A stretch of 64,000 bases of DNA, from positions 1 through 64,000 of the forward strand of contig JAPPMB010000137.1 of NCBI GenBank assembly GCA_028819255.1, written 5' to 3'. A program made the translations under genes and the position numbers. Origin of the DNA: Bryobacterales bacterium. Lineage in GTDB: Bacteria > Acidobacteriota > Terriglobia > Bryobacterales > UBA6623. Shown here one piece after another: positions 16,352 through 25,920 of this stretch (within the stretch, counting starts at the first letter, position 1; each line of letters starts with the position of its first letter). The notes under the pieces are model-generated. The model was not told where the DNA came from. It searched no databases and saw nothing but the letters and a program-made list of their open reading frames with translations.

Positions 16352-17737
16352 GTGAACGAACGGGATCGCGGGACTCGATGGTACGCGGAGGTCACGCGTC
16401 AGCAGTGGACCGTGCTGCTGATTGCATCGCTCGGATGGGTCTTCGACACGTTCGAGGGCCAAGTCTACGTATCGAGCATGAACGAGGCAATGCCGGACCT
16501 CCTGCCGGGCATGGACCGGATGGGCGCGGCGGAGCGAGCGGGGCGTCTGGCCTATTTCAACAACATCGCGTTCGGCGCGTTCCTTGTGGGGGGCGCTGCG
16601 GGCGGCGTGCTGTTCGGCGTCCTCGGCGACCGGATCGGGCGCGTGACGACGCTGTCGATTACGATCGCCACCTATTCCGCGTTTACGTTCCTCTCGTCGC
16701 TGTCGATGACCTGGTGGCATCTGGTGGCGTTCCGATTCCTGGTGGCGATGGGCGTGGGAGGCGAGTGGGCCGTCGCGGCGGCCTTGGTGGCGGAGGCGTT
16801 CCCCCGGAAGGCGCGCTCCTGGTCGCTTGCTATCTTCCACGCCTCAAGCGTCATCGGCACCTGGCTGGCGATCGGCGTGGGGGCGTTCATCGTTGCCAGA
16901 GGCGCGTTCATCTTGCCGCTGGCCGGGACCCCCTCAGTGGCCAGTTGGAGAGTCGGGTTCGCGACAGGAGCAGTCCCGGCGCTGCTGATCCTGGTGATCC
17001 GCCGGAAGCTCCGGGGTGAGACGCAGGCCTGGAGCCGTTCCAGAAAAGCCTTCAAGGGGCGGACAGGTCGGGCGGCGGAACTGTTCGGACCGGCTCTGCG
17101 GCGGCGCACGTTGGTCGGGATCGCGCTGGCCTCGATCGGTCTCGCGACGTTTTGGGGCGTCCACATCTACGGCAAGGATCTGCTGCGAGGCGAGATTGAG
17201 GCGAGGCTGCCGGAACCCGACCCGAGCCGCGCCGACGGAGCGGACCCCGAGGGCGACCGTTTCGCCCTGCTGAAGCGGTGGGAAATGCTCGGGATGCTGC
17301 TTGCCTCCACCGGTGGCGGCGCCGGCCTGCTTGCCTTCGGCGGACTCGCGGAGGCGCTGGGACGCCGTCGCGCGTTCGTTTTGTTCCACGTGGTCGGATT
17401 CGGCGCGGCTGTGTTGGTGTTTCAGGCGATCTCGTCGCCCGTCGGGCTCATGGTTGCGCTTCCCGTGTTCGGATTCTTCACCGTCGGCATGCACGCCGGG
17501 TACGCAGTCTACTTCCCCGAACTGTTTCCGACCAGGGTGAGAAGCACCGGGACCGGCTTGTGCTTCAACGTGGCCCGGATCCTGGCGGCGCCGGTTCTGG
17601 TCGCGTCCGGCTGGATGCAGCGGGATCTGGGCATGACGATGCGGAGCGCCGCTTCCCTGCTCAGCCTGCTCTTCCTGCCCGGTGCGGCGGTGATTGCGGC
17701 TGGCCCGGAAACCAAGGGAACCGACCTGCCAGAATAG
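16352..17737 (+). CDS. MFS transporter, sugar/metabolite:proton symporter type
   Basis: This is a twelve-helix major facilitator protein of about 461 residues. The family motif between helices 2 and 3 reads GVLGDRIGRV, and helix 4 carries FRFLVAMGVGGEWAVAAALVAEAFP, as in the metabolite:H+ symporter subgroup. GTG at 16352 is the chosen start. In-frame sequence upstream runs antisense to the nagB-like gene and is not protein-like. It is divergent from the nagB-like deaminase and followed after 51 bases by a Tat-exported Gfo/Idh oxidoreductase. That context suggests import of a sugar or sugar derivative. Confidence 0.9.
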   Translation: MNERDRGTRWYAEVTRQQWTVLLIASLGWVFDTFEGQVYVSSMNEAMPDLLPGMDRMGAAERAGRLAYFNNIAFGAFLVGGAAGGVLFGVLGDRIGRVTTLSITIATYSAFTFLSSLSMTWWHLVAFRFLVAMGVGGEWAVAAALVAEAFPRKARSWSLAIFHASSVIGTWLAIGVGAFIVARGAFILPLAGTPSVASWRVGFATGAVPALLILVIRRKLRGETQAWSRSRKAFKGRTGRAAELFGPALRRRTLVGIALASIGLATFWGVHIYGKDLLRGEIEARLPEPDPSRADGADPEGDRFALLKRWEMLGMLLASTGGGAGLLAFGGLAEALGRRRAFVLFHVVGFGAAVLVFQAISSPVGLMVALPVFGFFTVGMHAGYAVYFPELFPTRVRSTGTGLCFNVARILAAPVLVASGWMQRDLGMTMRSAASLLSLLFLPGAAVIAAGPETKGTDLPE

Positions 17738-22359: not shown

Positions 22360-23397
22360 TTACGGGACCGATGGTTGAACGATTCGCGTGCTTTTCCCGC
22401 CGTGGACAGATGGCTCGGCGCACCATTGCTTTCTTAGCAGCCCCAAGCCTTCCTCCAGGCCCGGGTCCAAGCGCATTACGCTGGCAGTTCCGAACAGCAG
22501 TTCGCGGTCGAGAGCCTCGCGAGTCTCGTCGCGATAGGCCTCGTTTGCCGGTAAGAACTCGCGGTCCTTGATGCTGTCGAAGATCTCGCGGCAGCGATCC
22601 AGCTGTCCCGCAGTCAACTCACGAGGGTCGAGCACGGGTAGCCCTGTGAGCTTGGCAACGGTGATGGACGCCCGTCCCTGCTGCTGCCTCGTCCCGTGCC
22701 ACCAGAACAGGACAAGCCCCAGAGTTGAGTTGGCCCAAAGCAGGAGGGGAACCTCGAATCGCGGCTCATGAGGAATCAGGTTCGGCCAAGCCCTTCCTCC
22801 CAGGCACTCTTCCGGCGTAAGGCACATGGCGAGGCTCTGGGAGTTCAATCGGAAGTCCCTGTTGGCATGCAGCCGGGACGCCCCGCGGTTCCAGCGCTCG
22901 ACCGCTCGCGCTCGGTCGTTCGGTCGGGGATCCCCACAAGAGTCGGGCAACACCACGAACCTGCGTTCCCCGTCGGCGAAATGCGCCCAAAGCATCGGCC
23001 ACGTCGGTATCTCGCCCACACGCAGGTTGCGCACGATGAACGGTCCTCGGGCAAGGCCTGTCTCACTGCTGGTTGTGAAGCCGCCGTTGATGTCTCTGTC
23101 AACAAGGCCCCGCGCCGCCACCGCGCCAAGCGCCACCACCGGCAGCTTGATCGCCTGCGCCCGCCGCGGCAAGCGGAGATACCCTCCGGCTAGGCTGCGC
23201 GCCGCCTCGATGACGCTCGCGGACCGGACGCCTGCGGCACCCGCTTCCAGGATGTCACCCAGCACGGCCTGACATCTGGCATTCTTCGCTTTGACCGCGG
23301 CCTCGAGCAGCGACGAGGGCCTTGCCGACAGATTGGAGAATGCCGCCTCGGACCCGCCCTCGTCCCGCTTGGTCGCCACAACTAGGCATTCGGCCAT
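22360..23397 (-). CDS. C-terminal fragment of the split N-6 DNA methylase
   Basis: This piece follows the second in-frame TAG. The open frame begins at 23484 with ALRAHYDDIHLTS, typical of sequence just after the methyltransferase catalytic fold. ATG at 23397 is the first possible independent start. The rest resembles the C-terminal half of large N6 methylases, with NLIPHEPRFEVPLLLWANST and a helical end that in this family contributes to target recognition. It is unlikely to work alone because motifs I and IV are in the preceding piece. It ends in TAA at 22360. Confidence 0.6.
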   Translation of the reverse strand: MAECLVVATKRDEGGSEAAFSNLSARPSSLLEAAVKAKNARCQAVLGDILEAGAAGVRSASVIEAARSLAGGYLRLPRRAQAIKLPVVALGAVAARGLVDRDINGGFTTSSETGLARGPFIVRNLRVGEIPTWPMLWAHFADGERRFVVLPDSCGDPRPNDRARAVERWNRGASRLHANRDFRLNSQSLAMCLTPEECLGGRAWPNLIPHEPRFEVPLLLWANSTLGLVLFWWHGTRQQQGRASITVAKLTGLPVLDPRELTAGQLDRCREIFDSIKDREFLPANEAYRDETREALDRELLFGTASVMRLDPGLEEGLGLLRKQWCAEPSVHGGKSTRIVQPSVP

Positions 23398-23484
23398 GCC
23401 GGTGTCCGCCGAGAACGCCCGCGCCGTACTGCCGGTCGCGGCAATGGACGTCAGATGAATGTCGTCGTAGTGGGCCCGCAGGGC

Positions 23485-24825
23485 CTACCGCGCCCCTTGC
23501 CACGACCCTCCCCTTGCGAACGAGAACGGAAGCACCATGGCCAGCACGCCGCCGTCTCTCAGCTTGCTGTGCCCCAGGTCCATGAAGTTCGACGCGAGAC
23601 CCGCGTTGCCATGGCCGAATAGGCCCGTCGTCTTCCTGAGTTTCCGTCCCATCGCCTGCTGCTCGTCGTGCGACGTGCTGAAGCCCGCGAACGACGGCAC
23701 CGGTATCTCGGCATGACGCGCCTCGTGGTTCGTCGGCCGCGTGAACGGCGGGTTCATGATGACCAGATCGCAGGACCTGTCCGCAATCGTGACGGAGTGT
23801 TCGCTGCGACTCTCCGACACCGTGCCGCCCATGGACTCGCTCGCGGCGAACAGGGAGTAGGAATGCTCCACATCGACAAAGTCCAGTGCGCCGACGTTGA
23901 TCTCGCCGTCGCTGACGCCGTACGGCAGCGTCACGATTCCGGACTTCCCGTAGGTGAGGGAGGGATGGGCGCTGGACAGCATGGAGCAGGTCAGATGGGC
24001 CGCGGCGGGCATGATGTCCAGCCCGGTCAGAACGCGCTCCATCAGGGCCTGATGCAGATCCTTGTCGTCGCCTCCGGCCCTGCGGTGGCGGCGGTTCACG
24101 GCACGCTGCACGGCGGACAGCAGAGCCCCCGTGCCGCAGGCGAAGTCCGCGATCCTCAGCTCTTCGATCACGGTCCGGTCCGACCAGTCCACATTCAGCC
24201 GCTCGACCGCCAGCTCCGCAAGCAGGCACGCGGACTCAGGCAGCGTGTAGAAGGTCGCGAGGAACTTCCGGTCGGCGATGAGGGTCTGGAACATCCTCCC
24301 TGCGAGGTCGTGATAGGTCGTCGCGCCCAGCTTGGCCAGTTCGGAAACGGACTCTCCGATCCGGCCCATCACGCGGAGAACCGCCCTGATCGGTATCTCC
24401 TCCAGCAGGTCGCGGGCAAGGCTGAAGATCGGCCAGTAGTTCACTTCGAGGATCGTCTCCCATGCATCCAGGAGCCTGAACTTGTCGAAGACGCCCTCCC
24501 GCTGGACGGGCGGAACGCCTGGCTTCCCCTCAATCGCCGCGTGGAACACGAAGGCGGAGACGCAGATCGCCGCCACCATGCGCTCGGTCTGCTTGCCGGC
24601 TTCCTGGTGAAGCACCTCGGCGAGCCGCTCCGGAGGGACTGGTCCGGACCAATTCGCAAGCAGGTTCGCCGCTTGCCGCACCACCCGTTCGAGGACTTCG
24701 GTGCCTCGTGCCAGTCTTCGTTCCGAGAGCGAGAGGTGCTCGACGGCATCCGCGAGATCGTCCATGCCCCCTTCCAGCCACCTCCGCCCGGGCGGCCAGC
24801 GGACGCTTTGGCCCCTGGCATCCAT
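23485..24825 (-). CDS. Methyltransferase-domain fragment of the split N-6 DNA methylase
   Basis: The 446-residue frame holds the SAM-binding motif FACGTG at residues 228-233 and the catalytic motif NPPF at 358-361. The family helical region before them is intact. ATG at 24825 directly follows the first TAG, so it could be translated by re-initiation. The end, VLPFSFARGGSWQGAR, normally continues into the next fragment without a break. In intact relatives this part transfers a methyl group from SAM to adenine in DNA. Alone it lacks the C-terminal region and is probably inactive. Confidence 0.75.
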   Translation of the reverse strand: MDARGQSVRWPPGRRWLEGGMDDLADAVEHLSLSERRLARGTEVLERVVRQAANLLANWSGPVPPERLAEVLHQEAGKQTERMVAAICVSAFVFHAAIEGKPGVPPVQREGVFDKFRLLDAWETILEVNYWPIFSLARDLLEEIPIRAVLRVMGRIGESVSELAKLGATTYHDLAGRMFQTLIADRKFLATFYTLPESACLLAELAVERLNVDWSDRTVIEELRIADFACGTGALLSAVQRAVNRRHRRAGGDDKDLHQALMERVLTGLDIMPAAAHLTCSMLSSAHPSLTYGKSGIVTLPYGVSDGEINVGALDFVDVEHSYSLFAASESMGGTVSESRSEHSVTIADRSCDLVIMNPPFTRPTNHEARHAEIPVPSFAGFSTSHDEQQAMGRKLRKTTGLFGHGNAGLASNFMDLGHSKLRDGGVLAMVLPFSFARGGSWQGAR

Positions 24826-25203
24826 CTAGTGCGTGGCGTAAAAGAATGCGGAACCCTCGACGGATTCGAGGTCACCGGTCCTGAGTCTCCCAGGCAGGAC
24901 AACGGACAAAACGCCTTCGATTTCGGCTCCTGTGCCCTGCAAGCTGGTCCCCAGCCGGCCTGCCGCGTCCAGGTCGAGCGTGTACGCCGGGGCGAACTCG
25001 GTCTCCACGATTACCGGCTGGCAAAAAGGCGGGGCGATCAGGATGTCCGGCCTCTTGGCTGTCCCCGTCCGCTGTTCAGCCTCCTGGATCACCTGGGTCC
25101 GCTCGGCGTGGACAGTTGCGTCAGTCCAGTCGGGATTCCGCCGTCTGAGGGCCCGCGCCAGCGCACCGTTCGCCTGCGGTTCCGTGTCCCTTGGGCCACT
25201 CAT
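24826..25203 (-). CDS. N-terminal nuclease-like fragment of the split N-6 DNA methylase
   Basis: This 125-residue frame carries a PD-(D/E)xK-like pattern: Pro52-Asp53 in RPDILI and Glu67-x-Glu69 in PVIVETEF. As I recall the family, such a domain precedes the methylase in one polypeptide, so the TAG at its end is internal to the ancestral gene. ATG at 25203 overlaps the TGA of the upstream transposase-relic frame (ATGA). That may be chance or translational coupling acquired after the insertion. No SD-like motif was noted. Confidence 0.6.
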   Translation of the reverse strand: MSGPRDTEPQANGALARALRRRNPDWTDATVHAERTQVIQEAEQRTGTAKRPDILIAPPFCQPVIVETEFAPAYTLDLDAAGRLGTSLQGTGAEIEGVLSVVLPGRLRTGDLESVEGSAFFYATH

Positions 25204-25920
25204 ACAGCCACATCCCTGGCAAGCGAAGCCCAATCTTCATCCCGGATCGGCTCCTCGGACCATCCGCCCCGTCCATCCATCCCCGAGACCGTGCGCGCGA
25301 TCGGGTCGGCAGAATTGGACTCGCGGACATCTTGCCGCCCCTTGAATTCCCTAATGTACCGTTGCGGATGCCTCGGCAACGTCTCGGGGCCGATGCCGAT
25401 GCAGCCACGCTCGCCCGTGCCGGGAAACGCTTCCGCTCGGCTCGTCCTCCCCTGATCGCGAACGTGTTCGCAGCCGGGCTGCCCCGACGGCCCGGGACCA
25501 AGTGTCGGCGAGTTGCAGGCGCTTGCATCTCCCGGGCAGTCCGAAGTTCTCAAGTCCGTCCGGTCGCTCACGAAACCCTGCGACATGCCCGTGTCGGTAG
25601 CGGCCTCCGCCTCATCCGAGGCGTCGTGGGCGTCCCGGCCTCTCGCGCCCACGAGCGCCGAATCTGCCGCCGGTCCGCAAGCGGTCAGCTCCTCACGAGT
25701 GTCGTTCCGCGGGTTCCCTCGCTTGCCTCCCATGGGGGTCTCGTCCACTCGGAGGGTTCCGCAGAACGGTCCCATCCTCGCCCGAGACGCCGCTGGAAGC
25801 CGGTCTGCCATGAACGCAGGCGACTTCCGCACAGTTCCCGGTTCCCGCTGGAGCTTCATGGACAGGATTCCCTGGCCGTTCGCGCTGGACGGTTGATGCG
25901 CGTGTTCCAGGCACGCTGCT
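25200..25920 (-). pseudogene. IS1595-family transposase relic
   Basis: The frame retains the order of an IS1595-type (ISPna2-like) transposase: SMKLQRE, then MADRL, VDETPMGGK with the first catalytic Asp, GFVSDRTD, GDASAC with the second acidic residue, and the end RYIREFKGRQDVRES. The HTNGIESFW motif reads RTSRAEAF here, so the third catalytic residue is lost. The N-terminal zinc ribbon is missing. The frame extends open to 26027 without good similarity. I found no terminal inverted repeats by eye. The relic ends exactly at the methylase gene start, suggesting the insertion helped isolate that gene from its promoter or neighbours. Confidence 0.65.

Follow-up and report, generated by a model that had tools for sequence, protein, structure and literature searches.

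The minus strand at 22360-25203 of the window, the whole 64,000-nucleotide stretch of DNA analysed here, raises the question of whether a restriction-modification gene interrupted by two in-frame TAG codons has been inactivated or is still decoded through its stops. Translation showed a single frame of 948 codons, in which the only internal stops were two TAG codons ahead of the natural stop TAA at 22360-22362. The first TAG (24828-24826) was codon 126 and the second (23487-23485) was codon 573, as a previous sequence-only reading of this DNA had reported. No frameshifts or indels were found over 2.8 kb and the homologues aligned collinearly in the same frame from end to end, which agreed with the claim of that reading that the frame is unshifted. 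Both stops were read from an assembly consensus. Judged by its length and by 27 aligned intact relatives, the frame is not a product of chance.

The codons ahead of the first TAG (codons 1-125; 24829-25203) encoded an N-terminal nuclease domain with a predicted restriction-endonuclease-like fold, based on its motif and a fold match with BpuSI. Codons 127-572 (23488-24825) covered a helical spacer and the first part of an N6-adenine methyltransferase domain, while codons 574-947 (22363-23484) covered the end of the methyltransferase and a target-recognition (specificity) part with the terminus EPSVHGGK, a C-terminus conserved in the family. The motifs of gamma-class N6-adenine methylases (FxGxG-like and NPPF/Y) were present as motif I FACGTG (24144-24127) and the catalytic motif IV NPPF (23754-23743), both with core residues invariant in the family. 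In the nuclease domain, D53 (25047-25045) and E67 (25005-25003) were invariant in 27 relatives and the third motif position was E69 (24999-24997). The corresponding PD-(D/E)xK-type motif in the intact relatives had an invariant D50 and E64 and a third position with E in 21/27 and K in 6/27. All of these features were on the minus strand.

The structure of L046, an intact orthologue with 73% identity, was modelled from an alignment of 27 sequences with a pLDDT of 85 and a pTM of 0.88. In a whole-chain Foldseek search the best solved structures were BpuSI (3s1s; E 1e-16) and DrdV (7lo5; E 6e-13), and high scores across the methylase and recognition regions were obtained for CamA, BrxX, MmeI and BsaXI. 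The N-terminal 152 residues of the orthologue folded alone with a pLDDT of 93. This isolated nuclease domain had no significant Foldseek match; a second aligner placed it with the BpuSI nuclease (Z 8.4, rmsd 3.5, 121 aligned residues) and also with the nuclease domains of BsaXI and DrdV. By this architecture, the intact protein is a predicted single-chain Type IIG-like restriction-modification enzyme, and in the relatives a single polypeptide (open frames of approximately 940-1000 codons) comprised the nuclease, the methylase and the specificity part. The conserved motifs and the Type IIG match of the orthologue model bore out the earlier description of a nuclease-like domain followed by an N6 methylase and a specificity-type end.

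BpuSI and DrdV, which are Type IIG (IIC) enzymes, have the same architecture as this protein: a PD-(D/E)xK-type nuclease at the N-terminus is followed in the same chain by a helical spacer, an N6-adenine methylase and a target-recognition domain. However, sequence identity to them was approximately 12-14%, and the window copy differs in carrying two stops. BREX PglX/BrxX and CamA have the same methylase and recognition-domain fold but no fused N-terminal nuclease, and where the flanks of relatives were read, none of the neighbouring genes stood out as a BREX partner. In Pfam and NCBIfam, no family was above the cut-off for the closest intact orthologue of the window gene, which had marginal matches only; the Eco57I profile fell just under the cut-off there and above it in one other relative. 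The methylase core was the only match in PADLOC. Identification as MADS2, PglX or DISARM was rejected, as the shared methylase core matched these weakly and far under the NCBIfam cut-offs.

Approximately 30 full-length relatives had a single open frame across both TAG positions. Besides the same genus, many other phyla contained such relatives, most of them in metagenome-assembled genomes. The alignment held 27 relatives, 26 of which were 35-73% identical to the first. Neither TAG of the window was found in any aligned relative, and none of these was split at either position, so the homologues are not separate proteins that end where the stops now stand. At the first TAG the relatives carried S, T, Y, A, Q, E or L and at the second K, R, Q, G, D, V, S, E, N, W or A. 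The stops had therefore not replaced conserved residues; both positions were variable and residue-tolerant, yet lay within folded elements. The first corresponded to strand 117-124 of the orthologue model, the final beta-strand of the nuclease core, and the second to helix 563-575, which follows motif IV in the methyltransferase domain.

When translated over the matched stretch, the near full-length relatives were all open through both TAG sites. Lesions among them were restricted to two copies and were in both cases away from the TAG sites of the window. The closest orthologue by DNA (L049 in genome G010; VXRL01000030.1, 4001-6828; 77% identity) was broken independently: codon 26 was a TAG, and the frame shifted near codon 432. 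The other copy (L077) had a late frameshift.

Selective constraint was estimated from five orthologues with our own implementation of a Goldman-Yang type codon model, with the best of five topologies tried. Omega was 0.194 for the window branch and 0.087 for the background (2dlnL 22.3), and 2dlnL was still 14.5 after columns near gaps were removed. The increase was present in every segment and was clear both between and after the TAGs. Constraint is relaxed on the window branch, where synonymous divergence is high. Since synonymous sites were near saturation, it can only roughly be estimated that the unconstrained time may amount to a tenth of the branch. The sequence-only reading had also pointed to a lack of other decay; this stood for indels but failed for substitutions, since the branch carried an excess of amino-acid change. 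No rise in omega was found for the broken G010 copy, and its inactivation may therefore be even more recent than that of the window gene.

Overall, these results argue, with a probability of about 0.89, that the window gene is a pseudogene, a recently inactivated copy of a Type IIG-like restriction-modification enzyme that is horizontally mobile and encoded by a single gene. As is expected of a pseudogene, the disruptions were absent from functional relatives and constraint was relaxed in our codon model. The proposal that the gene was killed recently by two point mutations was thus well supported by uninterrupted relatives, by the different lesions of the nearest relative and by the relaxed constraint. 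Against decay, 2.8 kb of sequence held no indels and omega was well under 1, so that any inactivation is recent. The residue tolerance of both TAG positions also speaks against it, as readthrough would need such positions too.

In its intact form, the enzyme would be one polypeptide in which the C-terminal part recognises a DNA site, the central domain methylates adenine and the N-terminal nuclease cuts unmodified DNA. Two independent nonsense substitutions would halt translation, the first within the nuclease domain once 125 residues have been made and the second within the methylase domain. Because both TAGs fall inside folded domains, no fragment would be a complete enzyme; neither the annotated start nor internal starts would give a complete nuclease or methylase domain, and activity is probably lost. 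Selection to retain the window copy was probably weak because several further relatives of this enzyme are uninterrupted in the genome.

The alternative that survives best, and is still unlikely, is that at least one of the TAGs has not become fixed, being a consensus or assembly error or a minority-strain variant, in which case many cells would carry an intact gene. The window genome is a draft in 174 contigs, probably metagenome-assembled as the named relatives are, and constraint was strong through most of the window branch, all of which would suit this explanation. However, it would require two separate substitutions in one gene, each of them nonsense; constraint was measurably relaxed on the branch, and further broken copies were found in the same genome and genus.

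Low-rate readthrough of TAG, which would supply full-length restriction enzyme in small, adjustable amounts, was the other explanation that had been proposed from the sequence and was considered very improbable. If both TAGs were decoded at low frequency, and the other single-TAG genes of the genome were treated likewise, which is just as improbable, the cell would retain a trace of full-length restriction-modification enzyme that could possibly be adjusted. The maintenance of the frame over both TAGs without indels, the residue-tolerant positions and the occurrence of several other genes with a single in-frame TAG in a sampled 1.4 Mb are consistent with this. However, the in-frame stops were not conserved among relatives, as readthrough would lead one to expect, and neither TAG was common to any of them; constraint was relaxed downstream of the TAGs too, and two successive readthrough events would probably leave very little product. 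Among the papers searched, there was no precedent for readthrough-controlled restriction enzymes.

The decoding of TAG in this genome also gave readthrough no support. RF1 was present, above the profile cut-off, and TAG terminated 274 of 693 gene-like frames in the 1.4 Mb sample (approximately 40%). A TAG-recoded genome was rejected on both grounds, as TAG was in regular use as a stop. The amber-suppressor tRNA suggested as a check was not seen, since no CUA anticodon was present among 43 tRNA matches; 42 were read with sense anticodons, and the 43rd, at a contig end, read CAC. This tRNA set was incomplete, with some isoacceptors missing from the assembly, and near-cognate readthrough needs no special tRNA. 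Of the in-frame stops that had coding sequence on either side, TAG made up 23/50 here (46%) and 13/29 (45%) in the single-contig sister genome G008, showing no TAG excess. The first 600 kb had given 23 TAG of 41 in-frame stops, and interrupted genes listed by hand had likewise tended towards TAG, a signal that was gone in the larger sample and in the sister genome. From codon usage, a fraction of 0.59-0.60 of single-base nonsense changes was expected to give TAG, and the chance of both nonsense mutations being TAG was approximately 0.36. Because some 60% of random nonsense changes in this GC-rich genome are expected to be TAG anyway, an in-frame TAG pair alone does not indicate recoding, which is a caution for genome scans.

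A naturally divided gene, with the nuclease, methylase part and specificity part made as separate assembling proteins, can be dismissed: separate subunits exist in some Type II and Type I systems and the ATG immediately after the first TAG (TAGATG, 24828-24823) could permit reinitiation, but the homologues contradict such a division, the breaks lie within a nuclease strand and a methylase helix and not in linkers, and past the second TAG the next in-frame start codon is 30 codons downstream.

Recent inactivation of the window gene fits the wider distribution of the family. DNA similarity between the window and its orthologues (70-77% match) was limited to the gene and absent from the flanks, and because it stops at the gene borders, the gene lies at unrelated sites in each genome. 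The same genome held a relic of the same subfamily, a broken 5' piece with TGA, TAG and TAA (C55:40851-41396), and further uninterrupted relatives on three other contigs (C105, as a tandem pair, C85 and C74), as well as other methylase genes. Sister genomes G004, G005, G007 and G017 carried short end-fragments of the subfamily. Restriction-modification systems have been described as alternating between purifying and relaxed selection and as frequently lost, particularly when many of them coexist (Oliveira et al. 2014, PMC4176335), and the decay of the window gene fits the turnover described there. That study surveyed complete systems, whereas the present case is one gene just after inactivation.

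A freshly broken defence gene is ordinary decay and alone of little weight. Together with the other copies, it shows the turnover of a single-gene restriction-modification system in an apparently sponge-associated Acidobacteriota genus, in which intact, freshly broken and fragmentary copies were found together. Judging from its relatives, the host looks like a sponge-associated bacterium. Sponge symbionts have been reported to be rich in restriction-modification genes (PMC5649159, PMC5099237), and several relatives of the gene came from metagenome-assembled genomes of groups known from sponges; in the parts consulted, the reports differ in counting restriction-modification genes, with no description of this enzyme family.

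The two uninterrupted enzyme relatives in tandem at C105:7270-13333 had 990 and 988 codons, a possible duplication of an active restriction-modification gene. Immediately upstream of the window gene, on the same strand, a degenerate IS1595/ISXO2-type transposase relic was identified at 25215-25874, which is not part of the enzyme but counts among the signs of decay. Pfam gave no match for this upstream 275-codon frame, and the relic was recognisable only against intact copies in the same genome (L155 and L156), to which tblastn showed 32-33% identity over 217-220 residues with E values of 2e-28 and 3e-30, respectively.

Finally, several other interrupted genes were noticed in this genome; a homology scan of the 1.4 Mb sample for such genes was partly affected by antisense-frame noise and was used for single cases only. 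An AAA ATPase and a SulP-type transporter with one TAG each and a PQQ dehydrogenase with one TAA were found on another contig of the same genome (C163; L137:13284, L140:14746 and L140:11519), and all three frames were otherwise continuous. A truncated second Type I-like restriction-modification locus (L132, C39:120000-139999; positions 16459 and 17284) had a single TAG in each gene piece and shared 80-83% identity with a copy on that stretch that was uninterrupted. Ordinary pseudogenes or errors in the consensus could account for these genes with a single stop. On the contig of the window, an FtsX/MacB-type permease (L129:11591; C135, approximately 95.2 kb) was apparently cut by one TAG into 456 and 372 codons, and other copies of this permease in the genome were single frames of approximately 820-870 codons.
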